Part shown: in pieces, positions 43,828 through 64,000 of the stretch | Layout: the number at the start of each line of letters is the position of its first letter | Numbering within the stretch: position 1 is the stretch's first letter | Assembly: GCA_030731745.1 (NCBI GenBank) | Contig: JANQTJ010000015.1 | Span: forward strand, 62,001 to 126,000 | Source: Flaviramulus sp. | Lineage (GTDB): Bacteria; Bacteroidota; Bacteroidia; Flavobacteriales; Flavobacteriaceae | Length of the DNA: 64,000 nucleotides | Direction: 5' to 3' | Made by a program: the position numbers and the translations under genes | The notes under the pieces: generated by a model | Told to the model about the DNA's origin: nothing | What the model saw: only the letters and a program-made list of their open reading frames with translations | The model's database searches: none

Positions 43828-46638
43828 TTGAAACCGACTAAAAACTCATTACAAGTATATATTCTTTTTTTATTTACTAGCATACTAATTTCTCAAGAAC
43901 GCCCACCAATTGAGATTTTTTCACCTAAAGATTATGGAGGAGAAACCCAAAATTGGTCTATTACTCAATCAAAAGAAAAATACATCTATGTTGCAAATAA
44001 TAAAGGTCTATTGGAATATAATGGCTCTAATTGGCAACTGTATTTATCTCCAAATGAAACAATAATTCGATCTGTTAAAGAGATTGATGATCTAATTTAT
44101 ACTGGTGCCAATAGTGAATTTGGATATTGGAAACGTAATGATCAAGGCATATTATTTTACACATCCCTATCTAAAACTCTTGATATTGAATTTCTTGAAG
44201 ATGAAGAATTTTGGAATATTGTTAATATTGATGATTATATATTATTTCAATCACTAAAAAGAATATACATCTACAATAAATCAAATAATTCTTATTCTAA
44301 AATAGATTCTGAAACTATAATCTATAAAATATTTAAAGTTGATGAAATTATCTATTTCCAAAAAACTAAGGATGGTGTTTATAAAATAGAAAATGGAGAA
44401 GCAAAATTAGTTTCAAACAACCTCATTTTACAAAATAACAGACTTGTTAATGTTTTTAATAAAGGTGATAATCTTTTAATTGAAACCGAAAATAATGGTT
44501 TTTACATATTAGAAAATGATTTACTTAAAAAATGGGAAATAAGTGCCAATGAAAAACTTTCTGAAATAAGTGTTTTTAGAAGTATTCAATTAAAAGATAG
44601 AAGTTTTATTTTAGGAACAAGGTCTAATGGTGTATTTCATTTAACAGAAGATGGCGTTATAGATTACAATTTAGATATTATTCATGGCTTGAGTAACAAC
44701 ACAGTTCATGGTGTTTTTGAAGATGCAGAAAACAATATTTGGCTAGCTTTAGAAAACGGTATTAACTGTATAAATATTAAGTCGCCTTTTAGAATATATA
44801 CTGATAAAGAGGGTAAAATAGGCACCGTTTACGCTTCAATAGTTCATAATAACAATTTATACTTAGGAACAAATCAAGGCTTATTCTATAAAGAGCTAGG
44901 CTTAAATGAAGACTTTAAAATAGTTGAAAATATTCAAGAAGCAGTTTGGTGTTTAGTTAATATAGAAGGTGAATTGTTTTGCGGTCATGACACTGGAACA
45001 TCTATAGTGAAAAATAATAAATCTGAAAAAATTGCAGGTACACAGCAAGGCACTTGGTCTATAAAACCAATAGAAGGGAGAAAAGATTTGCTTTTGCAAG
45101 GAAGCTATAATGGGTTATATGTTTTACAAAAAACAAATGATAAATGGCTATTTAGAAATAAAATTAAAGGATTTGATAGATCTAGTAAATTTTTTGAGTT
45201 TTTCAATAATTACATTTTTGTAAGCCATGAGTATAAAGGGGTTTTTAAAATTAAAATGGATAAAGATTTTAATACAGCTATAACTGTTGAAAAAAATTCA
45301 TCAATCAATAATGAAATTAATTCTAGTATAATTAAATATAATGATCAATTACTTTATGCTTATAAAGAAGGAATTTACAAATATGATAGTATCAAAAATG
45401 ATTTTTTAAGAGACACGTTTTTAAGTCAACTATTTAAAAAAGAAGAATACACCTCTGGTAAACTTTTATTCAATGAAAAAGCAAATACACTCTGGAGTTT
45501 TTCTGAAAAAGAGCTAAATTATTTATCTCTAGGAAAACTTAGCAATACACCAAAAATTAATAAAATACCTTTTTCTAAATCTTTACCTAGAGGGCTTACT
45601 GGTTATGAAAACATCTCAAATATTACAAATAAAAAATATTTAATAGGAACATCTAATGGTTTCATTCTTTTAGACTTAGACAAACAACAAAATAAAAACT
45701 ATAATATAAAAATAAATTCAATACTGACTCATAGCATAAGTTCACCTACACATATCATAAATAAAACAAGTAAAGGCTACTTTGAGAATAAAGAAAATAA
45801 TATTGAATTCTATTTTAGTGTACCAGAATTTGAAAAATATTTAGATACAGAATTTCAATATAAATTAGAAGGCATTTACGATAATTGGAGCGATTGGTCT
45901 GCAAATTCTTCAACATTATTTGAAAATCTACCATATGGAGACTATGAGTTTAAAATAAGAGCTAAAATTGGAAATACTATTTCAAATAATATAGCATCTT
46001 ATAATTTTAATATTAAAAGACCTTGGTATTTATCAAATTTGATGATAATAATTTATATTCTATCAATTTTACTTTTCTCATTATTAATGCACAATATTTA
46101 TAAAAGATATTATAAGAAACAACGTGAAAAATTATTGCAAAAAACTGTAAGAGAGTTAGAATTGAAAGAATTAGAAAACAAACAGCAACTTATGCGATTT
46201 AACAATGATAAACTCAGACAGGATATTGAAAGCAAAAATAGAGAATTAGGCATTTCAACAATGAGCTTAATAAAAAAGAATGAGTTTCTAAATACCATAA
46301 AAAAAGAATTGCAAAATATAGAAGATGGAAAAAACATCAAAAAGGTTATTAAAATTATTGATAAAAATTTAAACAATAATGATGACTGGTATTTATTTGA
46401 AGAAGCATTTAACAATGCTGATAAAGATTTCCTCAAAAAGATAAAAAGCTTTCATCCTACCCTAACATCAAACGATCTAAGACTTTGCGCCTATTTAAGA
46501 CTCAATTTATCATCTAAAGAAATAGCACCATTACTTAATATTTCACCAAGAAGTGTCGAGGTTAAACGTTATAGATTAAGAAAAAAGATGGATTTAGCTC
46601 ATGAAGCTAGCTTAACAGATTATATTTTAAAAATATAA
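43828..46638 (+). CDS. Two-component-regulator propeller / triple-tyrosine-motif regulator with C-terminal LuxR-type HTH (no kinase domain)
   Basis: N-terminal propeller repeats (IYVANNKGLLEYNGSNW), YYY-like domain (YKLEGIYDNWSDWS), TM (LMIIIYILSILLFSLLMH), coiled coil, C-terminal LRLNLSSKEIAPLLNISPRSVEVKRYRLRKKM. Confidence 0.88.
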   Translation: MKPTKNSLQVYILFLFTSILISQERPPIEIFSPKDYGGETQNWSITQSKEKYIYVANNKGLLEYNGSNWQLYLSPNETIIRSVKEIDDLIYTGANSEFGYWKRNDQGILFYTSLSKTLDIEFLEDEEFWNIVNIDDYILFQSLKRIYIYNKSNNSYSKIDSETIIYKIFKVDEIIYFQKTKDGVYKIENGEAKLVSNNLILQNNRLVNVFNKGDNLLIETENNGFYILENDLLKKWEISANEKLSEISVFRSIQLKDRSFILGTRSNGVFHLTEDGVIDYNLDIIHGLSNNTVHGVFEDAENNIWLALENGINCINIKSPFRIYTDKEGKIGTVYASIVHNNNLYLGTNQGLFYKELGLNEDFKIVENIQEAVWCLVNIEGELFCGHDTGTSIVKNNKSEKIAGTQQGTWSIKPIEGRKDLLLQGSYNGLYVLQKTNDKWLFRNKIKGFDRSSKFFEFFNNYIFVSHEYKGVFKIKMDKDFNTAITVEKNSSINNEINSSIIKYNDQLLYAYKEGIYKYDSIKNDFLRDTFLSQLFKKEEYTSGKLLFNEKANTLWSFSEKELNYLSLGKLSNTPKINKIPFSKSLPRGLTGYENISNITNKKYLIGTSNGFILLDLDKQQNKNYNIKINSILTHSISSPTHIINKTSKGYFENKENNIEFYFSVPEFEKYLDTEFQYKLEGIYDNWSDWSANSSTLFENLPYGDYEFKIRAKIGNTISNNIASYNFNIKRPWYLSNLMIIIYILSILLFSLLMHNIYKRYYKKQREKLLQKTVRELELKELENKQQLMRFNNDKLRQDIESKNRELGISTMSLIKKNEFLNTIKKELQNIEDGKNIKKVIKIIDKNLNNNDDWYLFEEAFNNADKDFLKKIKSFHPTLTSNDLRLCAYLRLNLSSKEIAPLLNISPRSVEVKRYRLRKKMDLAHEASLTDYILKI

Positions 46639-46948: not shown

Positions 46949-49900
46949 ATGAAAAACAATTTTCTAAGATTAGTACTCTTCTTATTTACTTCACTGGCCT
47001 TTGCTCAGACTGCAAAAGTATCTGTAGTAAATAGTGATGATGGGATGAAATTAGCAGTGAATGGAAAAGATTTTATGATTAATGGTATGAATTGGGATTA
47101 CATTCCAATCGGCACCAATACCATTAATGCTGAATTCTGGAAAAAATCTGATGATATAATCAAAGCAGGGCTTGATTCTGAAATGTCACTTCTTAAAAAC
47201 ATGAATGTAAATGTAATACGCCAGTACACTGGAGTACCAGCAAGATGGATTAAATACATTTACGAAAACTATGGTATTTACACCATGTTAAATCACTCAT
47301 TTGGACGATATGGGTTAACCATAGATGGTGTTTGGACTCCAATAACGTTGTATGACGATCCTAGAACTGCAGAATTTTTAATGACTGAAGTTGAAAACTT
47401 AGTTAAAGAATACAAAAACACGCCTGGACTACTTATGTACCTGTTAGGTAATGAAAATAACTACGGTCTTTTTTGGCAAGGAGCAGAAACTGAAGATTTT
47501 CCAGATGATGAACAAGAAAAAATCTTCATAGGCGAATCGCGTGGAAGACCTATGTATAAGTTAATGAATGAGGCTGCATTAAAAATAAAATCTATTGATG
47601 GGTCTCATCCAGTAGCAATTTGTAATGGTGATACTTTATTTATTGACATCATAGCAGAAGAATGTAAAGATGTTGATATATATGGTACCAACATGTATCG
47701 TGGAGTGTCATTTGGAAATGCATTTCAAGAGGTAAAAGAAAAATTAAATAAACCAATAATGTTTACTGAATTTGGTTCTGATGCTTTTAACGCTATTTCT
47801 AATCAAGAAGACCAAAAAATGCAGGCTTATTATATGGTTAATAACTGGAAAGAGATATACGAAAATGCTGCTGGTTTAGGGAAATCTGACAACTCTATCG
47901 GAGGTTTTACATTTCAGTTTTCTGATGGTTGGTGGAAAGCTGGATTTGATGACAGAAAAGATGCTGATACACAACAAACAGAATCAACTTGGAATGCTGG
48001 TGGTTATACATTAGATGAAGCATACCCTGGGGCTAATAACATGAATGAAGAGTGGTTTGGAATTTGTGCAAAAGGACCAACTAACGAAAGAGGTTTGTAC
48101 GATTTATTCCCAAGAGCAGCTTATTATGCTCTAAAAGAAGCTCATCAATTAAATCCATATGCTGAGGGTATTGATGGTGATTTTGTTAGAAATTATTTTA
48201 AAAACATCTCCTTAATGGAAGCTGTTTTAAAAGGACGAGGTGATAAAGCGGCTTTAATAGGAGAAAGTTCCGGAAAAATTAAACTTAGTAATTTAAGAGC
48301 TGAATTTACAACTTTTAATACAGGAGGGACTTTAATTACTACTCCAGACGCAGTGGATCCTACTAGTCAAACTTATCCAAATGAATTAGGTTTTGATCAT
48401 ATGCAATCTTATTTTATCGGCGTAGAAGGAGCTCCTTCTCCAAATATGAAAGCTAATGTGAATTTTAATATTTTAGGCAATGTTGCAGAAAATCCTATTG
48501 ACGAAATATTTTATGAAAACAGAGGAAGGCGATTTGCTGTAAACACTGATGAAGGTAATGTTGATGTTTTTGATCAAAATAGAGTTCAAATTTATAATGC
48601 AGAATATGAATGGAATACAAAAGAATTTGATTTAAGAGGATTTTACAGAACAGGTCATTATCACTGGGGTTATGAAGGAGATTTCTTTGGATTATATCCA
48701 GAGGCTAATTATGGCCCTAATTTAGATATTTACAATGGTGAGATATTAGGAGCTGAGATAGATGGTAAAGGCGCTTTAGATGGGTTAAAAGCCGCTTTTG
48801 GTCCACAGTTATGGTGGGGAGCTAATCCAGCTATTTTATTAAAATACCGAACAAAAATCGGCAAATATGATGTGACTGGTGTATTCCATGAAGATATCGA
48901 TGATATTGGTGCTGTTGTTACTTCTATCGCTATACCTATGCCAAGAACAAGAAGAGCAACCATACACATCGAAAGAGATTTTGGAAATGTGAATTTTGAA
49001 ATTGGTGGTATTTGGGGTGGTCAACCATTAAACGGAAGAGATTTTCAAATTGCCGAAGGTGGTCCTGGAAATTATGTGATTCTTGAAGATAAAATTCAAT
49101 CAAGAGATAATTGGGGAGCTAAAGCTAAAATCGAATTTTCAAAAGGAAGATTTAACTGGTATGCTCAAGGTGCGGCGATGGGACTTGTTGCTAATGGTGG
49201 TGCAGATGCAACTAGAACATTTACAGGTTGGCATTTAAAAGATAGCGGAAGCGGAAATCAAACAAATTTCTTAACAGGTTTCACATACTTAATAGGAGAT
49301 TTACAAATAGCTCCAAACTTTTTATGGCAAAAACCAATTGTTGGCGCTATACCAAATGATGTACAATCACCAGGAAGACTGAGAAATGTATTTGATGATC
49401 CATTTGCCGTAAGAGCAAATAGAGAAACAACTGCTGGTGAAATTTTATTTAGTTACGACCCAACTCCTGGTACTTGGATGTACGAATGGGATAATGATAG
49501 AGCTGAAGACGCGAAATTTGCAATGAATTTTGGTTTCGTCTTCCGTCATCATCCTACAGCGCAAGATGCTGCGATAGGTTTTTTAAGTAATCGTACGTTG
49601 TTTGCGTTCCCTAATTCAGCGCCAGCTAGAGATTTATGGGAAGCCCATACTAGGATAGTATCTAAAGTACATCCAGATTTAGGTGTTATAGCTAATTTTT
49701 ATGCTGGAAATGGACAGGCTAATGGTAGTGATCCTAGAATGATTCAACGTGTTGGAGGTGATATTAGATTAATTTATAATAAAATCAAACTAACTCATAC
49801 ATTTAAAATTAATGATTGGGGACCATTCGATTATCATAGAGATTTCAACTTAACATATCCAGTGCAATTAATGTTAGATTTATCAACAACACTTGGAAAA

Positions 49901-50098
49901 CCAGATTGGTTTATTTTACCTGGCACTCAAGTTGGTATTCGTGGTACTTGGCGTTCTATGGATCAAAATTCTCCAAGGTTTTCTCCAAATCAAACACCAT
50001 CTGAATTCGCTACATCTCCAACAATTAGTCCAGTAGGATTTCCTAATGGAAGCGAATGGGAAATTAGAACATATGTACATATTAATATTGGAAAATAA
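46949..50098 (+). CDS. GH clan-A (GH2-like TIM barrel) glycosidase with putative C-terminal outer-membrane beta-barrel
   Basis: Signal peptide; LLGNENNYGLFW acid/base-type and MFTEFGSDAF nucleophile-type motifs; about 550 residues of amphipathic beta-strand pattern after the TIM barrel. Confidence 0.78.
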   Translation: MKNNFLRLVLFLFTSLAFAQTAKVSVVNSDDGMKLAVNGKDFMINGMNWDYIPIGTNTINAEFWKKSDDIIKAGLDSEMSLLKNMNVNVIRQYTGVPARWIKYIYENYGIYTMLNHSFGRYGLTIDGVWTPITLYDDPRTAEFLMTEVENLVKEYKNTPGLLMYLLGNENNYGLFWQGAETEDFPDDEQEKIFIGESRGRPMYKLMNEAALKIKSIDGSHPVAICNGDTLFIDIIAEECKDVDIYGTNMYRGVSFGNAFQEVKEKLNKPIMFTEFGSDAFNAISNQEDQKMQAYYMVNNWKEIYENAAGLGKSDNSIGGFTFQFSDGWWKAGFDDRKDADTQQTESTWNAGGYTLDEAYPGANNMNEEWFGICAKGPTNERGLYDLFPRAAYYALKEAHQLNPYAEGIDGDFVRNYFKNISLMEAVLKGRGDKAALIGESSGKIKLSNLRAEFTTFNTGGTLITTPDAVDPTSQTYPNELGFDHMQSYFIGVEGAPSPNMKANVNFNILGNVAENPIDEIFYENRGRRFAVNTDEGNVDVFDQNRVQIYNAEYEWNTKEFDLRGFYRTGHYHWGYEGDFFGLYPEANYGPNLDIYNGEILGAEIDGKGALDGLKAAFGPQLWWGANPAILLKYRTKIGKYDVTGVFHEDIDDIGAVVTSIAIPMPRTRRATIHIERDFGNVNFEIGGIWGGQPLNGRDFQIAEGGPGNYVILEDKIQSRDNWGAKAKIEFSKGRFNWYAQGAAMGLVANGGADATRTFTGWHLKDSGSGNQTNFLTGFTYLIGDLQIAPNFLWQKPIVGAIPNDVQSPGRLRNVFDDPFAVRANRETTAGEILFSYDPTPGTWMYEWDNDRAEDAKFAMNFGFVFRHHPTAQDAAIGFLSNRTLFAFPNSAPARDLWEAHTRIVSKVHPDLGVIANFYAGNGQANGSDPRMIQRVGGDIRLIYNKIKLTHTFKINDWGPFDYHRDFNLTYPVQLMLDLSTTLGKPDWFILPGTQVGIRGTWRSMDQNSPRFSPNQTPSEFATSPTISPVGFPNGSEWEIRTYVHINIGK

Positions 50099-50110: not shown

Positions 50111-51508
50111 ATGAAAAATAGAAAATTAATTTATTCGAAAATCACACTTCTTTTTGGTTTGCTTTTCATAGCGAATACAAGTTGTGAAAGAGAATTATCT
50201 CCACAATCGGGATTAGCAGGTAACTCTACATCAGGAGATGTTTTTATAGATGGCTTTACAGGCGGTTTAGATTATTTCCCGTTTGGCGGATCATACTTAG
50301 ATGCTTTTTCAGTAGATACTGATAATAAATATAGTGGAAGTTCTTCCATGAGATTTGATGTTCCTAATGTTGGAGATCCTGCAGGAGCTTATGCAGGTGC
50401 CATCTTTCGTTTAGAATCTGGTAGAGATTTAACAGGTTATGATGCTTTAACATTTTGGGCTAAAGGCACCAAAGCTGGTTTGATAAATGAAATTGGATTT
50501 GGAACTGATTTTGGAGAAAACAAATATCAAGTTAGTATGTCTCTTCAATTAACTACTAATTGGAGAAAATATGTGATTCCAATTCCAGACGCAACCAAAT
50601 TAATACAAGAAAGAGGTTTGTTTTGGTATGCTGAAGGACCAGAAAACGGAATAGGCTATAGTTTTTGGATTGATGAACTAAAGTTTGAAAAACTAGGAAC
50701 TATTGCACAACCACAACCTGCTATTTCGGATGGTGCTGATAAATCAGAAACAGCTTTTACTGGTGTAGATATAGCAATAACTGGATTAACTCAGACATTT
50801 AATCTGGAATCTGGTGAAAATGTAACTGTAAATGCAGCACCTTCATATTTTAATTTTAAATCTTCAAATGAAGAAGTTGGATTTATAAACGAATCTGGTG
50901 TTGTTACAATTATAGGAGAAGGTACAACAACCATAACAGCATCGTTAGGTGGGGTTTTAGCAAAAGGATCATTAGAACTTTCTTCAAGAGGAGGTTTTGA
51001 TTTAGCACCAATACCGACAAGAGATCCTAGTAAGGTTATTTCTATTTACAGTGATACCTATACAAATGTTCCTGTTGACTTCTTTAATGGATTCTGGGAA
51101 CCTTTTCAAACAACTCAATCTTCTGAGTTTGCGATCGGAGGTAATAACATGATAAATTATACCAATTTCAACTTTGTTGGTAATCAGTTTGCTAATCCTA
51201 CTGTAGATGCAACTCAAAAATCTAATGTACACGTTAATATGTACATTCCAAATAGTGTACCTGCAAACATGGATTTCTTAATAACTCTTGTAGATTTTGG
51301 TCCAGACCAAGCAGATGGTGGTGGTGATGATACTAGACAGCAAGTGTTTTTTGATAAATCTCTTTGGGTTCCTGATACATGGATTACATTAGAATTTCCT
51401 GTCACGATGGATAACAAAAACAATATTGGACTTATTATTTATGAAAACATTAATTTTTCATCACTAAGTAATTGGTATTTAGATAATGTATATTTCTATG
51501 AAGATTAA
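50111..51508 (+). CDS. Carbohydrate-binding lipoprotein with Ig-like (BIG2) segment
   Basis: Lipobox-like IANTSCERE; CBM-like beta sandwich (DALTFWAKGTKAG); ITGLTQTFNLESGENVTVNAAP...GEGTTTITASLGG. Confidence 0.7.
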   Translation: MKNRKLIYSKITLLFGLLFIANTSCERELSPQSGLAGNSTSGDVFIDGFTGGLDYFPFGGSYLDAFSVDTDNKYSGSSSMRFDVPNVGDPAGAYAGAIFRLESGRDLTGYDALTFWAKGTKAGLINEIGFGTDFGENKYQVSMSLQLTTNWRKYVIPIPDATKLIQERGLFWYAEGPENGIGYSFWIDELKFEKLGTIAQPQPAISDGADKSETAFTGVDIAITGLTQTFNLESGENVTVNAAPSYFNFKSSNEEVGFINESGVVTIIGEGTTTITASLGGVLAKGSLELSSRGGFDLAPIPTRDPSKVISIYSDTYTNVPVDFFNGFWEPFQTTQSSEFAIGGNNMINYTNFNFVGNQFANPTVDATQKSNVHVNMYIPNSVPANMDFLITLVDFGPDQADGGGDDTRQQVFFDKSLWVPDTWITLEFPVTMDNKNNIGLIIYENINFSSLSNWYLDNVYFYED

Positions 51509-51538: not shown

Positions 51539-52435
51539 ATGAATTTAAAAAACACAATGATAATGAAAACAAAAATCTTTAAGCAGAACCTATTACATAG
51601 AAATGTAAACTTAATATTTGGGGTTCTTAGTCTTACATTTTTGGTCTTTTTTACCGTTACTAGCTGTTCAACTAGCGAAACACAAACGGTAACTAATTTC
51701 AATACTATTACCATGCAAGATGAATTTGATGTTGAAGGTGCTCCAAATAGTGAAATTTGGACATATGATATTGGTAGAGGTAATAATGGATGGGGTAATA
51801 ATGAATTACAATACTACACTGATAGTTCTGAAAATGTTTCGGTACAAAACGGATACTTAATAATAACTGCACAAAAGGAAGATTTCCAAGGAGCTTCATA
51901 TACGTCGGCAAGAATATTAACTAAAGACTTATTCGAACAGAAATATGGTCGTTTTGAAGCCCGTATTAGATTGCCATGGGGACAAGGTATGTGGCCTGCT
52001 TTCTGGTTATTAGGTGCGAATTCTGATGAAGTTACCTGGCCTGCATGTGGAGAAATAGATATTATGGAAAACCGCGGGCAAGAACCTACATTAATTAATG
52101 GTAGTTTACATGGACCAGGTTATTCAGCTGGAGAAGCTATTACAAAGGCTTATACCTTACAGAATTCTCGTTTTGATACAGATTTCCACATTTTTGGAAT
52201 AGAATGGGGCCCAGGATATATAAACTATTATGTTGATGATGTATTATATAACCAAATTACACCAGAAGATGTAACTGGAGAATGGATTTTTGATGATCAA
52301 CCATTCTATATAATAATGAATGTTGCTGTAGGTGGAAATTATGTGGGTTCACCTAATAACGAAACCGTATTCCCACAAACCATGCTTGTAGATTATGTTC
52401 GTGTTTACAAAGCAGAAATATTTAATAATAACTAA
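51539..52435 (+). CDS. GH16 family glycoside hydrolase (laminarinase-like), lipoprotein
   Basis: Catalytic CGEIDIMENRG; QYYTDSSENVSVQNGYLIITAQKE; C-terminal VDYVRVYK. Confidence 0.93.
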   Translation: MNLKNTMIMKTKIFKQNLLHRNVNLIFGVLSLTFLVFFTVTSCSTSETQTVTNFNTITMQDEFDVEGAPNSEIWTYDIGRGNNGWGNNELQYYTDSSENVSVQNGYLIITAQKEDFQGASYTSARILTKDLFEQKYGRFEARIRLPWGQGMWPAFWLLGANSDEVTWPACGEIDIMENRGQEPTLINGSLHGPGYSAGEAITKAYTLQNSRFDTDFHIFGIEWGPGYINYYVDDVLYNQITPEDVTGEWIFDDQPFYIIMNVAVGGNYVGSPNNETVFPQTMLVDYVRVYKAEIFNNN

Positions 52436-54484: not shown

Positions 54485-54510
54485 CATAAATAATCTGAAC
54501 AATATAGTTG

Positions 54511-57500
54511 ATGAGCAATAAAATTTATAAAGAAGAATCTAAAAACTCAACCAAAGTGAATAATTCTATAAAAGGAGAATTAGTGTCTATAGAAAATGAA
54601 ACCTACTACAAGATTTCTAACTGTGATGAAATGCGTCCGTTTTTCATGAGTATCGTAAGCGACTCTAATCATTGGATGTTTATTTCTAGTAACGGAGGTT
54701 TAACAGCAGGCAGAAAAAATGCAGGGTTTTCATTATTCCCTTATTATACAGATGATAAAATAACAGAGTCTGCTGAAATAACAGGTAGTAAAACGATTTT
54801 CCAAATTCATTACAACGATGAAATTTTAATTTGGGAACCTTTTTCAATTCGTCAAATGGGAATATATGAAGTTAAAAGAAATCTTTATAAAAACACTTAT
54901 GGCAACAAAATCATTTTTGAAGAAATCAATAAAGATTTAGGATTAACTTTTCAATACGAGTGGAACTCAAGTGATCAGTTTGGCTTTGTTAAAAAATCTA
55001 AATTAATAAATAGCTCAAAAGATGTTAAAATCATTACTGTTTTAGATGGTTTACAAAATATAATACCTAATGGCGTTCCAGCAGATACACAAGCTACACA
55101 TAGTAATTTAGTTGATGCTTATAAGCGAAATGAATTAATACCAGCAGTTGGTTTGGGTATATATGCATTAAGTGCTATTATAGTTGATAAAGCAGAACCT
55201 AGTGAGGCTTTAAAAGCCAACACAGTTTGGTCTGCAGGTTTGAAAAACCCTATTTACTTATTATCTTCAATACAATTAGATAACTTCAGAAAGGGTAAAT
55301 CAGTAAAGCAAGAGGTAGATGTTAAGGCTGAAAAAGGTGCTTATTTTATTTCTTCTGAGATTGAACTTAAATCAGATTCTGAAAAAAATTGGATGTTTGT
55401 AGCCAATGTAAATAAATCTATCACTGGCGTAAACGAAGTAGCTGAAATAATTAAAAACACAAATAACATTACTGAAGCTGTTCAAAAAGATATCAATGCT
55501 GGCACAAAAAAATTAATAGAACTAACAGCTGCATCTGATGGTTTACAATTAACTGCTGACGCCTTAATTAATACCCGTCATTTTTCTAACACACTCTTTA
55601 ATATTATGCGTGGTGGTATTTTTGATGATGGATACAATATTGAAAAACAAGACTTTATACAATACATTTCTAAAGCAAATAAATCGTTCTTCTCTAAAAA
55701 AGAGCAACAGCTAAATACGCTCCCCGAAATTTTCACACTTGATTATTTAAAAAACCTTGCGGAAGACGATGTTGATACAAACTTTAAACGTTTATGTTTT
55801 GAATATTTACCTTTAAAATTTAGTAGAAGACATGGGGATCCTAGTAGACCTTGGAATAAATTTTCAATAAATACAAGAAGTGAAATAGATGGCTCTAAGA
55901 TTCTAGATTATGAAGGAAACTGGCGCGATATATTTCAAAACTGGGAAGCATTAGCGCATTCCTATCCAGAATATATTGAAAGTATGATTCATAAGTTTTT
56001 AAATGCTACAACATTTGAAGGCTACAACCCATATAGAGTTACAAAAGATGGTTTTGATTGGGAAATTATCGAAGAAAATGATCCGTGGTCTTACATCGGT
56101 TATTGGGGAGATCATCAAATTATTTACTTATTAAAATTCTTAGAATTTATTGAAAACCACTACCCTAAGCTACTAGAAAAACGTTTCTCTGAAGATATTT
56201 TTGTTTATGCCAATGTCCCTTATAAAATTAAAAGTTACTCTGATACATTAATTAATCCAAAAGACACAATTGATTTTGATTATAAGTTAGATGAAAAAAT
56301 CAATGAGGCTAAACAATTTTTAGGTGCTGATGGTGCTTTATTAACTGATAAGAATTCAGAAATATATAAAGTAAACTTAATAGAAAAATTATTAGCTACG
56401 GTACTTGCAAAAGTATCTAATTTTATTCCTGAAGGTGGTATTTGGTTAAATACACAAAGACCTGAATGGAACGATGCAAACAACGCATTAGTTGGTAACG
56501 GTGTGTCTATGGTTACGTTATGTTACCTAAATCGTTTTTTAAATTTCTTTTACAATGTAGTATCTAAATCTAAAACTAATTCTGTGCAAATTTCTGATGA
56601 GTTAGTGACCTTTTTTAATGAAGTTGTAAAAACATTACAAACCAATAAACATATCCTTTCTGGGCAAGTTTCTAACAAAGACAGAAAAACAGTGCTAGAT
56701 GGCTTAGGCATTGCAGGAAGCAACTACAGAATGACCATTTATAAAGAAGGTTTTACTGCAAAAAAATCTATAATAACAAAGGCTAATATTTTAGATTTCA
56801 TTAAAACCACTAAAGATTATCTACAACATACCATCGATTCAAATAAGCGATCTGATAATATGTACCATGCTTATAATTTAATGACAGTTGAAAATGATAC
56901 TGAGGTATCAATATCTTATTTATCGGAAATGTTGGAGGGCCAAGTAGCAGCATTAAGTGCTGGTTATTTATCTACTAAAGAAGCTCTAGATTTATTAGAT
57001 GGATTAAAAGGTAGCTCGTTATTCAGAGAAGATCAATACAGCTATATTTTATACCCCAATAAAGAATTACCAAGCTTTGAAAAAAAGAACAATATACCTT
57101 CTGAAAAAGTAGAAAAATCAGAATTACTAAAACTATTGGTAAATAACGGAAATGCTCAAATTATAGAAAAAGATGTATTGGGTAATTATCATTTTAATGG
57201 TACGTTTAACAATGCTAATAGTTTAAAACAAGCATTGACTAACCTACCAGAGAAGTACCAATTGTTAGTCGCTAAAGATAAAAATTTATTATTAAATACT
57301 TTTGAAGAAATTTTTGATCATAAATCATTTACAGGTCGTTCTGGAACTTTCTTTGGCTATGAAGGATTAGGTTCTATTTATTGGCACATGGTTTCAAAAT
57401 TATTATTAGCCGTTCAAGAAAATTGTTTGTTAGCAGTAAATAATAATGAAAGTGAGGTAGTAATTGGTAAACTACTAGATCATTATTACGAAATTAGTGC

Positions 57501-57969
57501 AGGAATTGGCGTACATAAATCACCTGAATTGTATGGTGCCTTCCCAACGGATCCTTATTCACATACACCTGCCACAAAAGGAGCTCAACAACCAGGAATG
57601 ACAGGACAAGTAAAAGAAGATTTATTAAGTAGATACGGTGAACTTGGAGTATTTGTTAAAAATGGGATTTTATTTTTCAATCCAAGATTATTAAGAATAC
57701 AAGAGTTTTTGAAAGAAACTACTGTTTTTAATTACACAAACACTAAAAACGAAGTTACTGAAATTGAGTTGGATAAAAACTCATTATGTTTTAGTTATTG
57801 TCAAATTCCGGTCATCTATAAACTTACTGAATCTAATCAAATTCAAGTAGTTTATAATAATGATGATACTAAAACTTTTGATAGTCTAAGTTTAGATGAA
57901 AAAACATCGAAATCAATTTTTGAAAGAAGAGGACAAATAAATAAACTAATCGTTTCTATTAAGAAATAG
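54511..57969 (+). CDS. GH94/GH149-like beta-glucan phosphorylase (cytoplasmic)
   Basis: No signal peptide; NDPWSYIGYWGDHQIIYLLKFLE, GLGIAGSNYRMTIYKEGF, GAFPTDPYSHTPATKGAQQPGMTGQVKED; about 1150 aa. ATG 54511 preferred over TTG 54508. Confidence 0.78.
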   Translation: MSNKIYKEESKNSTKVNNSIKGELVSIENETYYKISNCDEMRPFFMSIVSDSNHWMFISSNGGLTAGRKNAGFSLFPYYTDDKITESAEITGSKTIFQIHYNDEILIWEPFSIRQMGIYEVKRNLYKNTYGNKIIFEEINKDLGLTFQYEWNSSDQFGFVKKSKLINSSKDVKIITVLDGLQNIIPNGVPADTQATHSNLVDAYKRNELIPAVGLGIYALSAIIVDKAEPSEALKANTVWSAGLKNPIYLLSSIQLDNFRKGKSVKQEVDVKAEKGAYFISSEIELKSDSEKNWMFVANVNKSITGVNEVAEIIKNTNNITEAVQKDINAGTKKLIELTAASDGLQLTADALINTRHFSNTLFNIMRGGIFDDGYNIEKQDFIQYISKANKSFFSKKEQQLNTLPEIFTLDYLKNLAEDDVDTNFKRLCFEYLPLKFSRRHGDPSRPWNKFSINTRSEIDGSKILDYEGNWRDIFQNWEALAHSYPEYIESMIHKFLNATTFEGYNPYRVTKDGFDWEIIEENDPWSYIGYWGDHQIIYLLKFLEFIENHYPKLLEKRFSEDIFVYANVPYKIKSYSDTLINPKDTIDFDYKLDEKINEAKQFLGADGALLTDKNSEIYKVNLIEKLLATVLAKVSNFIPEGGIWLNTQRPEWNDANNALVGNGVSMVTLCYLNRFLNFFYNVVSKSKTNSVQISDELVTFFNEVVKTLQTNKHILSGQVSNKDRKTVLDGLGIAGSNYRMTIYKEGFTAKKSIITKANILDFIKTTKDYLQHTIDSNKRSDNMYHAYNLMTVENDTEVSISYLSEMLEGQVAALSAGYLSTKEALDLLDGLKGSSLFREDQYSYILYPNKELPSFEKKNNIPSEKVEKSELLKLLVNNGNAQIIEKDVLGNYHFNGTFNNANSLKQALTNLPEKYQLLVAKDKNLLLNTFEEIFDHKSFTGRSGTFFGYEGLGSIYWHMVSKLLLAVQENCLLAVNNNESEVVIGKLLDHYYEISAGIGVHKSPELYGAFPTDPYSHTPATKGAQQPGMTGQVKEDLLSRYGELGVFVKNGILFFNPRLLRIQEFLKETTVFNYTNTKNEVTEIELDKNSLCFSYCQIPVIYKLTESNQIQVVYNNDDTKTFDSLSLDEKTSKSIFERRGQINKLIVSIKK

Positions 57970-58051: not shown

Positions 58052-59257
58052 GTGAAAACGTTAAAAAATAAAACTGCTCAAGAAATTTTAAATAATCCGG
58101 ATTATTTGGCTATTTCTTATGGTGGATACAGACAAAATTCTAGAAATATCCAACCGACTATTCAAGAGTTAAAAGAGGATATGAAGATTTTATCTGCTAT
58201 GGGCGTTAAAATTTTAAGAACTTATAATGTTCAAGTTCCACTTCCACATGCTTCTAATGTACTGAAGGCTATAAAAGAATTAAAAAATGAAGATCCTAGC
58301 TTTGAAATGTATGTGATGCTGGGCGCATGGATTGATTGCCAAAACGCATGGACAGGACACGTTCCTAATCATGATGTTGAAAGCGAAAACAATGCAGGTG
58401 AGATTGATAGGGCTATTTCATTAGCTAAAGCCCATCCAGATATAGTTAAGATTATTGCTGTAGGAAACGAAGCTATGGTACGTTGGGCTACAAGCTATTT
58501 TGTGCGTCCTAATGTTATTCTTAAATGGGTAAATCATTTACAAAATTTAAAAAAAACTGGTGATCTACCTAAAGATTTATGGATTACTAGCTCTGATGAT
58601 TTTTCATCATGGGGTGCAGGAGATCCAAGTTATCATTGTGAAGATTTAACTAATCTTATTAAGGCAGTAGATTATATATCTATGCATACCTACCCTATGC
58701 ACAACTCTCACTATAATCCTGCCTTTTGGTTAGTTCCTGAAAATGAATATGAACTATCAGATTCTGAAAAAATTGAATCTGTAATGCAAAGAGCTTTAAA
58801 TTTTGCCAAAGACCAATACGAAGCCGTTGTAAAATATGTACAAAGCTTAGGTGTTAATAAACCTGTTCATATTGGTGAAAGTGGTTGGGCATCAATTTCT
58901 AACGAGCATTATGGTGCAAGTGGATCGAAAGCAGCTGATGAATATAAATCAGGAAGGTATTATCAATTGATGAGAGCATGGACTTACAAAGAAAAAATTT
59001 CATGTTTCTATTTTGAAGCCTTTGATGAGCAATGGAAAGATGCTAATAACCCAGAAGGATCTGAAAATCATTTTGGTCTAATTAACCTTATAGGTCAAGC
59101 AAAATATGCTATTTGGGATTTAGTAGATAATGGTGTATTTAATGGTTTAACTAGAAATGGTATAAAAATCACCAAAACTTATAAAGGAGAAAAAAAGAAA
59201 TTACTCTCTGATGTTCTAGTTCCGCCATTACAAAAAGAAGCAACTTTTAATTATTAA
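58052..59257 (+). CDS. GH17-like glycoside hydrolase, predicted cytoplasmic
   Basis: LSAMGVKILRTYNVQ, IIAVGNEAMVRW, KPVHIGESGWAS; GTG start; no signal sequence. Confidence 0.82.
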   Translation: MKTLKNKTAQEILNNPDYLAISYGGYRQNSRNIQPTIQELKEDMKILSAMGVKILRTYNVQVPLPHASNVLKAIKELKNEDPSFEMYVMLGAWIDCQNAWTGHVPNHDVESENNAGEIDRAISLAKAHPDIVKIIAVGNEAMVRWATSYFVRPNVILKWVNHLQNLKKTGDLPKDLWITSSDDFSSWGAGDPSYHCEDLTNLIKAVDYISMHTYPMHNSHYNPAFWLVPENEYELSDSEKIESVMQRALNFAKDQYEAVVKYVQSLGVNKPVHIGESGWASISNEHYGASGSKAADEYKSGRYYQLMRAWTYKEKISCFYFEAFDEQWKDANNPEGSENHFGLINLIGQAKYAIWDLVDNGVFNGLTRNGIKITKTYKGEKKKLLSDVLVPPLQKEATFNY

Positions 59258-59259
59258 TT

Positions 59260-60555
59260 ATGAAAATTTTTTTAAACATTATGAGAAATTGTTTCCTGAT
59301 TTTTTTAATCGGTTTCATTTTTTCTTGTAGTAAAATTAAAAGCAATAATGTGACACCTATTGAAGAAAAAAAAGAAATAACAGCAAAAGATATTTTAGGT
59401 AACTCTAATTACTTAGCCATGTCTTATGGTGGCTACCGAAACGCAAATCATGATATTGAGCCAACTGTAGATGAACTCAAAGACGATATGAGAATTTTAT
59501 CTGCCATTGGTGTAAAAGTACTTCGAACTTACAAAGTACATTTACCTCATGCTTCAAATGTACTTAAGGCAATTTCTGAAATAAAAAAAGAAGATACATC
59601 TTTTGAAATGTACGTGATGTTAGGCGCCTGGATAAATTGTAAAGATGCCTTTACTGATAAAGTACCAGATCATTCACAAGACAATGAATTAAACGCTATA
59701 GAGATTGGTAAAGCTGTATCATTAGCAAACCAATACCCAGATATTGTTAAGGTTATTGCTGTTGGCAATGAAGCTATGGTAACATGGCAAGCACAATACT
59801 ATGTGCAACCATGGATAATTTTAAAATGGGTAAACCATTTACAAAAATTAAAAATGCATAACGAACTACCTAAAGATTTATGGATTACAAGTTCTGATAA
59901 TTTTGCTTCTTGGGGTGGTGGTGATGGCAGTTATCACGTTGAAGATTTAACTAAATTAATAAAAGCTGTAGATTTTATTTCCATGCACACCTACCCTATG
60001 CATGATACCCATTACAATTCTAATTTTTGGGGCGTTTTAAAAGATGAAAATACACTAACTGATATTGAAAAAATTGATGCAGCTATGGTGCGTTCCCTAA
60101 ATTATGCCATATCCCAATATAAATCAGTTTCTAATTACATAAAAAGTATTGGAGTTGATAAACCAATTCATATAGGTGAAACAGGATGGGCTTCTTTTTG
60201 TAATAATTTTTATGGTGCGAATGGCTCCAAAGCTACAGATGAATATAAAGAAGCTAAATTTCATGATTTGATTAGAGACTGGACAAATAAAAATAACATC
60301 TCTTGTTTTTATTTTGAAGGCTTTGATGAACCATGGAAAGGTGGAAATGATCCTGGAGATTCTGAAAAACATTTTGGTCTATTTACTGTTGAAGGTAAAG
60401 CAAAATATGCTTTATGGAATATGGTTGATAGAGGTGTTTTTAATGGATTAACAAGAAATGGAAATCCAATTATAAAAACCTATAATGGAGATAAAAACAC
60501 ATTAATGAATGATGCTTTAGTTCCTTTAACAAAGAAAGAAATAATACTACATTAA
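59260..60555 (+). CDS. GH17-like glycoside hydrolase, lipoprotein
   Basis: Lipobox-like FLIGFIFSCSKI; otherwise a close paralogue of the 58052 protein (VIAVGNEAMVTW, KPIHIGETGWAS). Confidence 0.84.
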   Translation: MKIFLNIMRNCFLIFLIGFIFSCSKIKSNNVTPIEEKKEITAKDILGNSNYLAMSYGGYRNANHDIEPTVDELKDDMRILSAIGVKVLRTYKVHLPHASNVLKAISEIKKEDTSFEMYVMLGAWINCKDAFTDKVPDHSQDNELNAIEIGKAVSLANQYPDIVKVIAVGNEAMVTWQAQYYVQPWIILKWVNHLQKLKMHNELPKDLWITSSDNFASWGGGDGSYHVEDLTKLIKAVDFISMHTYPMHDTHYNSNFWGVLKDENTLTDIEKIDAAMVRSLNYAISQYKSVSNYIKSIGVDKPIHIGETGWASFCNNFYGANGSKATDEYKEAKFHDLIRDWTNKNNISCFYFEGFDEPWKGGNDPGDSEKHFGLFTVEGKAKYALWNMVDRGVFNGLTRNGNPIIKTYNGDKNTLMNDALVPLTKKEIILH

Positions 60556-60574: not shown

Positions 60575-62062
60575 ATGAAAATAATTAAACCTTTTTTTTA
60601 CATTTTTTTAGTTTTCGTGATTATGAATTGTTCTGACAAACAAAACCAATTGAGCGTTGAAATATATGAAACATCTGAAAGCGGAAATAAATTAACAAAA
60701 ATATCAGCTTTCAATATTTCAGAAAATCCAGTTACTATAAAACTAAAACCTGAACAAAAACTTCAAACAATAACAGGTTTTGGAGGTGCTTTTACTGAAT
60801 CATCCGCATTTTTGTTGAATAAATTAAGTAAAGAAAATCGTAAAAAAATTATTAATGCCTATTTTAGTAAAGAAGGTGCACACTACTCTTTAACAAGAAC
60901 ACACATGAATTCCTGTGACTTTTCTTTAAGTAATTATTCTTACACACCTGTAGAAGACGATAAAACTCTTGAGCACTTTAGTATTCACGAGGATAAAGAT
61001 GATTTAATTCCATTTATAAAAGACGCTATGGCAGCCTCTACAGATGGATTTAAAATTTTCGGCTCACCTTGGACAGCTGCTCCATGGATGAAAGATAACA
61101 ATAATTGGGTTGGTGGTAAACTACTACCTGAATATTATGATACTTGGGCCTTGTTTTTCTCAAAATTTGCAGATGCCTACAAAGAAGAAGGTATTAATAT
61201 CTGGGGCTTTACTGTTGAAAATGAACCTTTAGGTAATGGTAATAACTGGGAAAGTATGCATTACACTCCTGATGAAATGACCAATTTTGTTCAAAATTAT
61301 TTAGGCCCAAAATTGGAAGCTGATGGAAAAGGAGATTTAAAAATTTTAGGCTATGATCAAAACAGAGAACACTTAAAAGAATGGGTAGATTCTCAATTTA
61401 AAAATGAAGAAACTTCTAAATATTTTGATGGAACGGCTATTCATTGGTATGCAAGTACTTATGATTATTTTCCTGAAGAATTACAATATGCACATAACAA
61501 AGCGCCTTCTAAACTTTTAATACAATCAGAAGCTTGTATAGATGCAGAAATTCCTGTTTGGCTAGATGATTCTTGGTATTGGAAAAAAGAAGCTACAGAC
61601 TGGGGATGGGACTGGGCACCTGAGGAGGATAAATATTTACACCCTAAGTATGCGCCAGTTAATCGGTATGCGAGAGATATCATTGGGTGTCTTAATAATT
61701 GGGTAGACGGCTGGGTAGACTGGAATATGGTGCTCGATAAAAAAGGTGGTCCAAACTGGTTTAAAAATTGGTGTATTGCACCTGTAATAGTTGATCCTGA
61801 AAATGATGAAGTATATTTTACACCAATTTACTTCACCATGGCACATTTTAGTAAATATATTAGACCAAATGCTAAAGTTATTGGAGTTGAAAATTCAGAT
61901 AAAAATTTAATGGTGACAGCAGCTGAAAATCCTGATGGAAGTACCATTGTTGTGATTTTTAACGAAACCGAAAATAGAAGTAGCATTAATTTGTTACTAA
62001 ATAATAAATCAGTTGAATTTTCTATTAATGCAAAGGCTATTCAAACCGTCATAATTAAATAA
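60575..62062 (+). CDS. GH30 family glycoside hydrolase, lipoprotein
   Basis: TGFGGAFTESSAFLLNKL, GFTVENEPLGNGNNWESM, KLLIQSEACIDAE; lipobox-like FVIMNCSDK. Confidence 0.92.
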   Translation: MKIIKPFFYIFLVFVIMNCSDKQNQLSVEIYETSESGNKLTKISAFNISENPVTIKLKPEQKLQTITGFGGAFTESSAFLLNKLSKENRKKIINAYFSKEGAHYSLTRTHMNSCDFSLSNYSYTPVEDDKTLEHFSIHEDKDDLIPFIKDAMAASTDGFKIFGSPWTAAPWMKDNNNWVGGKLLPEYYDTWALFFSKFADAYKEEGINIWGFTVENEPLGNGNNWESMHYTPDEMTNFVQNYLGPKLEADGKGDLKILGYDQNREHLKEWVDSQFKNEETSKYFDGTAIHWYASTYDYFPEELQYAHNKAPSKLLIQSEACIDAEIPVWLDDSWYWKKEATDWGWDWAPEEDKYLHPKYAPVNRYARDIIGCLNNWVDGWVDWNMVLDKKGGPNWFKNWCIAPVIVDPENDEVYFTPIYFTMAHFSKYIRPNAKVIGVENSDKNLMVTAAENPDGSTIVVIFNETENRSSINLLLNNKSVEFSINAKAIQTVIIK

Positions 62063-62101: not shown

Positions 62102-64000
62102 ATGTCATCAAAAACTAATAAAGTCCCCATTGGAAAAAAAATAGCGTTCGGATTAGGAATGCTAGCAAATCAAATGTTTCCTGCTGCGTTAGGAATTTTT
62201 ATGGTTGTATTAGTACAAGATTTAGGATTCCCAACATGGATGTGGGGTGTTTTATTTTTCTTGCCTAGAGTTTTTGATTCTATAACAGACCCAATAATGG
62301 GCTTTATCTCTGATAATACAAAATCTAAATGGGGAAGACGCCGCCACTATGTTATGATTGGAGCTATAATTATGGGTATTTCATTTACTTTGATGTGGCA
62401 ACTTTATCGTGACGATGGCATCAATTATAATTTTACATATTTCTTAATCTGGTCTCTTATTTTTTATTTAGGCCTTACCATTTTTAGTGTGCCATTCGTT
62501 GCTATGGGTTATGAAATGAGCGATGATTTCCATGAACGTACAAATATTATGGCTGTAGCACAATGGATTGGACAGTGGGCTTGGGTAATTGCACCTTGGT
62601 TTTGGGTGGTTATGTATGATCAAGGTTGGTTTGAATCTGCTGATGTAGCTACAAGAACTTTGGCACTATGGGTAGGTATTGGTTGTGGTATATTAGCAGC
62701 AATTCCTGCTATATTTCTTAAAGACAAATCAACTTTAGATGATGATAGTTTAGAGCCTTTGACAATGGGAAACATTGGGGGAAGTTTAAAAGGAATTGTA
62801 AAAGGTTTTAAAGAAGCTTTTAAATTAGTGCCTTTTAAAAAATTATGTATCGCTACTTTCTTTATTTTTAATGCATTTAATACCATTGCAGGTTTTTCTT
62901 TTTTTATCATAGTTTACTATTTATTTAATGGGGTTACTGGTGATGAAGGCGCTTGGATATGGCCAACACTTTTTGGTAGTGTAGGCGCTTTAGTTACTAC
63001 GTTTATTGTAATTCCTATTGTTGCGAAAATGTCTAAAATAGTAGGCAAAAAAAATGCGTTTTTAGCTTCTCAAGGAATTTCTATTATTGGTTACATAATG
63101 CTTTGGTTTCTTTTTATTCCTGGTAAACCATATATGTTTTTAATTGCTATGCCTTTCTTTTCTTTTGGAATTGGTGGGCTTTTTACATTAATGATGTCAA
63201 TGACAGCTGATGTATGTGATTTAGATGAATTAAATTTTGGACAACGAAGAGAAGGAATTTTTGGGGCTATTTACTGGTGGATGGTTAAATTTGGTTTAGC
63301 TATAGCTGGTTTATTAAGTGGGCTTATAATGTCTATGTTAGACTTTACGCCTGGTGCAGCTACCCAACCTGAAGGAGCTGTTACTGGATTAAGAATTTTC
63401 TTTTCTGCATTCCCTATATTAGGAACTGCAATTGCTATGTATGTTATGCGTGATTATGATCTAACTGAAGAGCGTGCATTAGAAATAAGTGCAGAATTAT
63501 CAAAAAGAAAAGAAAAGAAAAAAACTAAACAAGTTTCTTCTTCATATGGAGGAGGTAAACTACTCTCAGCGTTAAATAATAATGTAACTTTAGGTGAGTT
63601 TAAGGAAATAGATTTTAGTAATAAAAATGTAGAAGACTTAAAAGAATTATTCTCAGAAAATCTATCAAATGGCTTACATGGTTTGTGTTTTAGTCCATAT
63701 TTAGAAGGTCAAAAAGCGGGAGATATCTTATCAGAAAAACAAATCAGAAGACGTATGGAAATTATTTCTCCCTACACCAAATGGGTGCGCTCTTTCTCAT
63801 GTACAGAGGGTAATGAATTAATACCTGAAATAGCACATAATAAAGGATTAAAAACTATTGTTGGTGCTTGGATTAGTGATGATAAAAATAGAAACAAAAA
63901 GGAAATTGATACATTAATAAAATTGGCTAAATCTGGATATGTTGATGTTGCTGCTGTTGGTAACGAAGTATTATTGAGAGGTGAAATCACTGAAAATGAA
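62102..64000 (+). CDS. MFS (GPH/MelB-like) sugar transporter fused to a C-terminal GH17-like domain; 3' end beyond window
   Basis: ATG at 62102, 633 codons open to the window end. Transporter: MSSKTNKVPIGKKIAFGLGMLANQMFPAALG...DPIMGFISDNTKSKWGRRRHYVMIG...DLDELNFGQRREGIFGAIYWWMVKFG. Then in the same frame: NGLHGLCFSPYLEGQKAGDILSEKQIRRRMEIISPYTKWVRSFSC...AAVGNEVLLRGEITENE. Confidence 0.85.
   Translation, partial: MSSKTNKVPIGKKIAFGLGMLANQMFPAALGIFMVVLVQDLGFPTWMWGVLFFLPRVFDSITDPIMGFISDNTKSKWGRRRHYVMIGAIIMGISFTLMWQLYRDDGINYNFTYFLIWSLIFYLGLTIFSVPFVAMGYEMSDDFHERTNIMAVAQWIGQWAWVIAPWFWVVMYDQGWFESADVATRTLALWVGIGCGILAAIPAIFLKDKSTLDDDSLEPLTMGNIGGSLKGIVKGFKEAFKLVPFKKLCIATFFIFNAFNTIAGFSFFIIVYYLFNGVTGDEGAWIWPTLFGSVGALVTTFIVIPIVAKMSKIVGKKNAFLASQGISIIGYIMLWFLFIPGKPYMFLIAMPFFSFGIGGLFTLMMSMTADVCDLDELNFGQRREGIFGAIYWWMVKFGLAIAGLLSGLIMSMLDFTPGAATQPEGAVTGLRIFFSAFPILGTAIAMYVMRDYDLTEERALEISAELSKRKEKKKTKQVSSSYGGGKLLSALNNNVTLGEFKEIDFSNKNVEDLKELFSENLSNGLHGLCFSPYLEGQKAGDILSEKQIRRRMEIISPYTKWVRSFSCTEGNELIPEIAHNKGLKTIVGAWISDDKNRNKKEIDTLIKLAKSGYVDVAAVGNEVLLRGEITENE

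Follow-up and report, generated by a model that had tools for sequence, protein, structure and literature searches.

The closest described relative of the gene analysed here is FbGH17b (also FbGH17B; FORMB_24740, AOR29491.1) of Formosa sp. Hel1_33_131, a GH17 exo-β-1,3-glucosidase with an N-terminal 12-TM MFS domain, for which glucose release was reported and a coupling of hydrolysis and uptake was suggested (Unfried et al. 2018, PMC6246565). According to BLAST searches in the same study, this MFS-GH17 fusion is common among marine Flavobacteriia. In the later literature, searched also under other names for the fusion, we found no further paper on it and none testing channelling. A second point of comparison is MlGH17B of Muricauda lutaonensis (PMC11005184, PMC13188888), which belongs to the same GH17 subgroup and the same PUL type, is predicted to be cytoplasmic and is 53% identical to FbGH17B. 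MlGH17B adjoins an MFS gene, the two being separate genes in Muricauda, and it is a stand-alone transglycosylase that carries Tyr136 and performs poorly below DP5. The third is RmBgt17A of the fungus Rhizomucor miehei (PDB 4WTP/4WTR), which has no transporter fusion and in which the exchange Tyr102Ala abolished transfer, as cited in PMC11005184. Laminarin is a major marine carbon pool. Nature offers few tests of whether physical attachment speeds uptake, a question raised in 2018, and a transporter that carries a glycosidase is among them. Beyond that description, the present comparison adds two GH17 clades that usually travel together, a contrast between them at one tyrosine position, their joint occurrence in further families of Bacteroidota as well as in Burkholderiales, and apparent losses of the fused domain in some lineages.

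The window, a stretch of 64,000 nt from Flaviramulus sp. (contig JANQTJ010000015.1), lies within a draft genome of 2.36 Mb in 46 contigs that is 75% complete. A preliminary description, made from the letters of this stretch, had proposed that the frame starting at ATG 62102 runs without a stop to the window end and joins a GPH/MelB-like transporter through a basic linker (KRKEKKKTKQ) to a GH17-like domain on the cytoplasmic side. The frame is indeed open over the 633 codons inside the window, the linker and every quoted GH17-like motif are present, and in the contig sequence past the window end the stop follows a complete GH17 domain at window-equivalent position 64465, giving 787 aa in total. 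The gene thus encodes one protein composed of a GPH/MelB-type transporter with 12 helices (62102-63469, + strand; residues 1-456), a basic linker (63470-63613, + strand; about residues 457-504), whose length and sequence vary among homologues according to a comparison of the translated linkers, and a complete GH17 barrel (residues 505-787), of which the first 129 residues are encoded at 63614-64000 (+ strand). Neither a stop nor a frameshift occurs between 63480 and 63700. Like FbGH17b, this is a single frame with 12 TM helices followed by GH17, located in a laminarin PUL with GH30, GH17A and GH16. The fusion is therefore genuine but already known; the novelty implied in the preliminary description was mistaken, since both the architecture and the coupling idea were published in 2018.

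In the N-terminal half, Pfam assigned MFS_2 to residues 16-456 (199 bits, over the cut-off), and a hydropathy scan with a 19-residue window yielded exactly 12 non-overlapping helices. Lysine and arginine numbered 4, 5, 1, 8, 4 and 2 in the inside loops (1, 3, 5, 7, 9 and 11) and 0, 1, 1, 0, 1 and 0 in the outside loops (2, 4, 6, 8, 10 and 12); this alternation predicts an N-in/C-in topology with the N-terminus and the GH17 domain in the cytoplasm, as had been proposed, and on the same count we rejected a periplasmic GH17 domain. An Asp pair (D59 and D63), invariant in an alignment of 49 sequences, occupies what we take to be the cation site of MelB. The Asp in the MelB motif DIPFWSL, presumably part of the sugar site, is not conserved, the window protein having SVPFVAM there, so the sugar specificity of MelB is not transferable to the fusion. 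In fold, length and cation-site Asp pair the transporter half otherwise resembles MelB/GPH symporters (PDB 4M64, 9OLD), which have no enzyme domain. With its MFS_2 profile, MelB-like sequence and fold and Asp pair it is a GPH (MelB-like) symporter, although its score against the NCBIfam GPH model (185.6 bits) lies below the strict cut-off of 231.

For the three-dimensional arrangement we used an AlphaFold model of the homologue L037, which is 83% identical to the window protein and heads the 49-sequence alignment (mean pLDDT 82.4, pTM 0.60). Foldseek matched one half to MelB (TMt 0.85) and the other to the GH17 transferase 4WTP (TMt 0.86). How the two domains are oriented relative to each other is uncertain, because linker residues 476-491 have pLDDT below 50 and because of the pTM of the model.

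The C-terminal domain is a GH17 enzyme domain (clan GH-A, retaining), matching Pfam Glyco_hydro_17 at residues 679-785 (48.7 bits, over the cut-off) and possessing both catalytic glutamates: the acid/base E622 in GNEVLL (codon 63965-63967) and the nucleophile E714 in TETGWP, past the window end. This pair was found in 89 of 89 fused domains.

The genes around the fusion, all on the + strand within the window, begin with a Y_Y_Y/LuxR-type regulator (43828-46638), which heads the cluster and is followed by a GH2-like gene (46949-50098), an ORF of 465 aa with no Pfam match (50111-51508) and a GH16 gene (51539-52435). A protein of 672 aa whose start resembles that of a lipoprotein is encoded between the latter and a GH149-type β-1,3-oligoglucan phosphorylase (54508-57969), in which no signal peptide was seen; this phosphorylase matched PDB 6HQ6 with 1637 bits and received no recognition at all in the Pfam search. 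The two GH17 genes that the preliminary description had placed upstream are at 58052-59257, related to the endo-laminarinase FbGH17A, whose structure has been solved (PDB 6FCG, 600 bits), and at 59260-60555, an FbGH17A-like paralogue over the Pfam GH17 cut-off with a lipoprotein-type signal (FIFSC) read from the sequence. The pair is separated from the fusion by a GH30 gene of 495 aa (60575-62062; Pfam GH30, 246 bits, plus GH30C). Downstream, past the window end, a stand-alone GH17 of 302 aa with the transglycosylase Tyr/Trp/Glu triad follows directly (window-equivalent 64499-65407), and an FG-GAP/UnbV_ASPIC protein is also encoded downstream. By its gene content and layout, this cluster is a laminarin PUL as published for Formosa (PMC6246565) and Muricauda, sharing GH16, GH17A, GH30 and GH149 with the PUL of FbGH17b; both the cluster and the published assays of the Formosa homologue speak for laminari-oligosaccharides as the substrate. 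The FbGH17A-like gene at 58052-59257 has a GTG start and, in contrast to the adjacent lipoprotein gene at 59260, lacks an evident signal peptide; both a wrong start and a cytoplasmic copy are possible.

Taken with the published system, the window gene is very probably a homologue of FbGH17b (FORMB_24740) that serves the inner-membrane step of the laminarin utilisation locus, combining import with cytoplasmic cleavage. Periplasmic GH30 and GH17A would cut laminarin down to short β-1,3-oligosaccharides, which the GPH-type half would bring in together with a cation, both substrate and cation coupling being predicted. The GH17 half, attached to the last helix on the predicted cytoplasmic side, would hydrolyse them near the exit point, its exo-hydrolysis to glucose being carried over from the Formosa homologue. 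The neighbouring separate cytoplasmic GH17 probably transglycosylates, and the GH149 phosphorylase would convert chains to glucose-1-phosphate. Against this reading, cleavage of short endo-GH17A products has been published for FbGH17b only, the related MlGH17B acts poorly below DP5, and the domain orientation in the L037 model is uncertain.

Coupled import and cleavage, as proposed in 2018 (PMC6246565), is plausible; the substrate might also be physically channelled, and the tether might bring a kinetic benefit. With respect to channelling alone, it is a serious possibility, if somewhat short of probable, that the tether does not channel substrate but mainly fixes a 1:1 expression and holds the enzyme at the membrane while the product mixes freely with the bulk cytoplasm. 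The variable and probably disordered linker would fit such an arrangement, as would the separate MFS and GH17B genes of Muricauda and the unfused transporters, found in 4 of 80 loci and as 11 same-clade proteins. The fused domains nevertheless fall on one side of a single supported branch and have persisted in many families, suggesting some importance of being attached.

Among the 80 loci closest to the window protein, cultured isolates included, 76 carried the fusion, a share that is not a population frequency since the loci were picked by similarity to the fused protein. This confirms the architecture in other Bacteroidota, as the fusion loci belonged to Flavobacteriaceae, Saprospiraceae, Lewinellaceae, Cyclobacteriaceae and Cytophagaceae, in addition to Burkholderiales/betaproteobacteria. 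The probability that an assembly or frameshift artefact joined two genes is practically nil: the draft state of the genome might invite the suspicion, but 76 independent loci with the same fusion, cultured isolates among them, and the junction without stop or frameshift refute it. A stand-alone GH17 was nearby in 66 of the 76 fused loci and GH149 in at least 52. In 400 Flavobacteriaceae genomes, a GH17 of the group considered here was present in 116 and a frame open over the length of the fusion in at least 21 (among the matches listed and with the genome studied here included); the fusion was also seen in other families of the phylum. The 18 Burkholderiales/betaproteobacterial fusion loci form one clade; two of the genomes represented in it, AAP51 and AAP65, carry no MAG label. 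In the trees of both domains this clade lies inside Bacteroidota, which points to transfer, and the Burkholderiales probably acquired the cassette in this way.

In a carefully built tree of 60 GH17 domains, one branch (support 100/98) separates fused from stand-alone domains, so the stand-alone GH17 downstream of the fusion did not arise recently by copying of the fused domain. In a quick tree of 198 domains, rooted on a distant third class, the fused label needs two changes and four fused rows fall outside, but the root of this tree is very long and we did not rely on it. A C-terminal KLKF/KLKY, considered for telling fused and free GH17 apart, was not diagnostic. On the transporter side, 11 unfused proteins lie within the fused-transporter clade, requiring at least five label changes on well-supported branches. 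Repeated loss of the fused GH17 is the simplest reading of this pattern in the tree, and repeated gain is possible as an alternative. Such same-clade transporters indicate that the fusion is not essential, and they provide a natural comparison with the fused lineages.

The two GH17 clades differ at the acceptor site, where Tyr136 of MlGH17B corresponds to Tyr102 of RmBgt17A and to Leu625 of the window protein. At this position 85 of 89 fused domains have a residue other than Tyr, whereas 81 of 103 stand-alone domains have Tyr (both counts including near-duplicates); Burkholderiales account for 13 of the 22 stand-alone domains without it. A Met at this position was noted in PMC11005184 for FbGH17B, that one protein, and it is from the description there that we took the residue. 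The fused domain resembles RmBgt17A in its GH17 barrel, Glu pair and acceptor-site Trp-Glu (Trp682 and Glu683); of the three residues at the acceptor site, these two are present in all fused domains. It departs from the glucanosyltransferase triad of the MlGH17B/RmBgt17A type through Leu625. It is improbable that the fused GH17 is itself a transglycosylase that lengthens imported oligosaccharides, traps them and improves the substrates of GH149, as a β-1,3 counterpart of MalQ/MalP. Its nearest solved GH17 structure is a β-1,3-glucanosyltransferase, and the retained Trp-Glu and frequent GH149 neighbour would suit this role. The scarcity of Tyr among fused domains argues against it, as do the loss of transfer in the cited RmBgt17A Tyr-to-Ala variant and the glucose release reported for FbGH17b (PMC6246565) with Met in place of Tyr. 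Hydrolysis by the fused domain remains our preferred reading, and the difference between fused and free copies yields a one-residue prediction about activity.

The tree requires only 3-4 changes of the Tyr trait, and the distribution of the trait is therefore a phylogenetic pattern reflecting one or few events instead of repeated independent losses; a test of independent contrasts between fusion and Tyr loss found one independent pair, too few for significance. A scenario joining these observations, which we consider rather doubtful, is that after one old fusion the tethered GH17 lost its Tyr and became a hydrolase at the exit, that the free copy with Tyr stayed a transglycosylase, both forming with GH149 a maltodextrin-like system for β-1,3-glucan, and that the cassette then moved to Burkholderiales. 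PMC13188888 regards MlGH17B, which is outside the trees built here, as equivalent in position to FbGH17B. Loss of the fused GH17 in some lineages would imply that MlGH17B may correspond to the stand-alone paralogue instead. Tyr136, the lack of a fusion and an identity of 53% to FbGH17B, as found between the fused and stand-alone clades, suggest the same for MlGH17B, and it resembles the downstream stand-alone GH17 of the present genome and not the fused domain.

A third GH17-like gene of ~310 aa and ~25% identity often lies beside the pair (L040:9278-10231, L053:9316-10257 and 27 more loci), and is absent there in the window genome. It has both catalytic Glu residues and Val at the Tyr136 position. 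The order of the three genes is fusion, stand-alone and third class in Bacteroidota, and stand-alone, third class and fusion in Burkholderiales (L072, L082, L083, L088, L091, L094, L096, L099, L106 and others).
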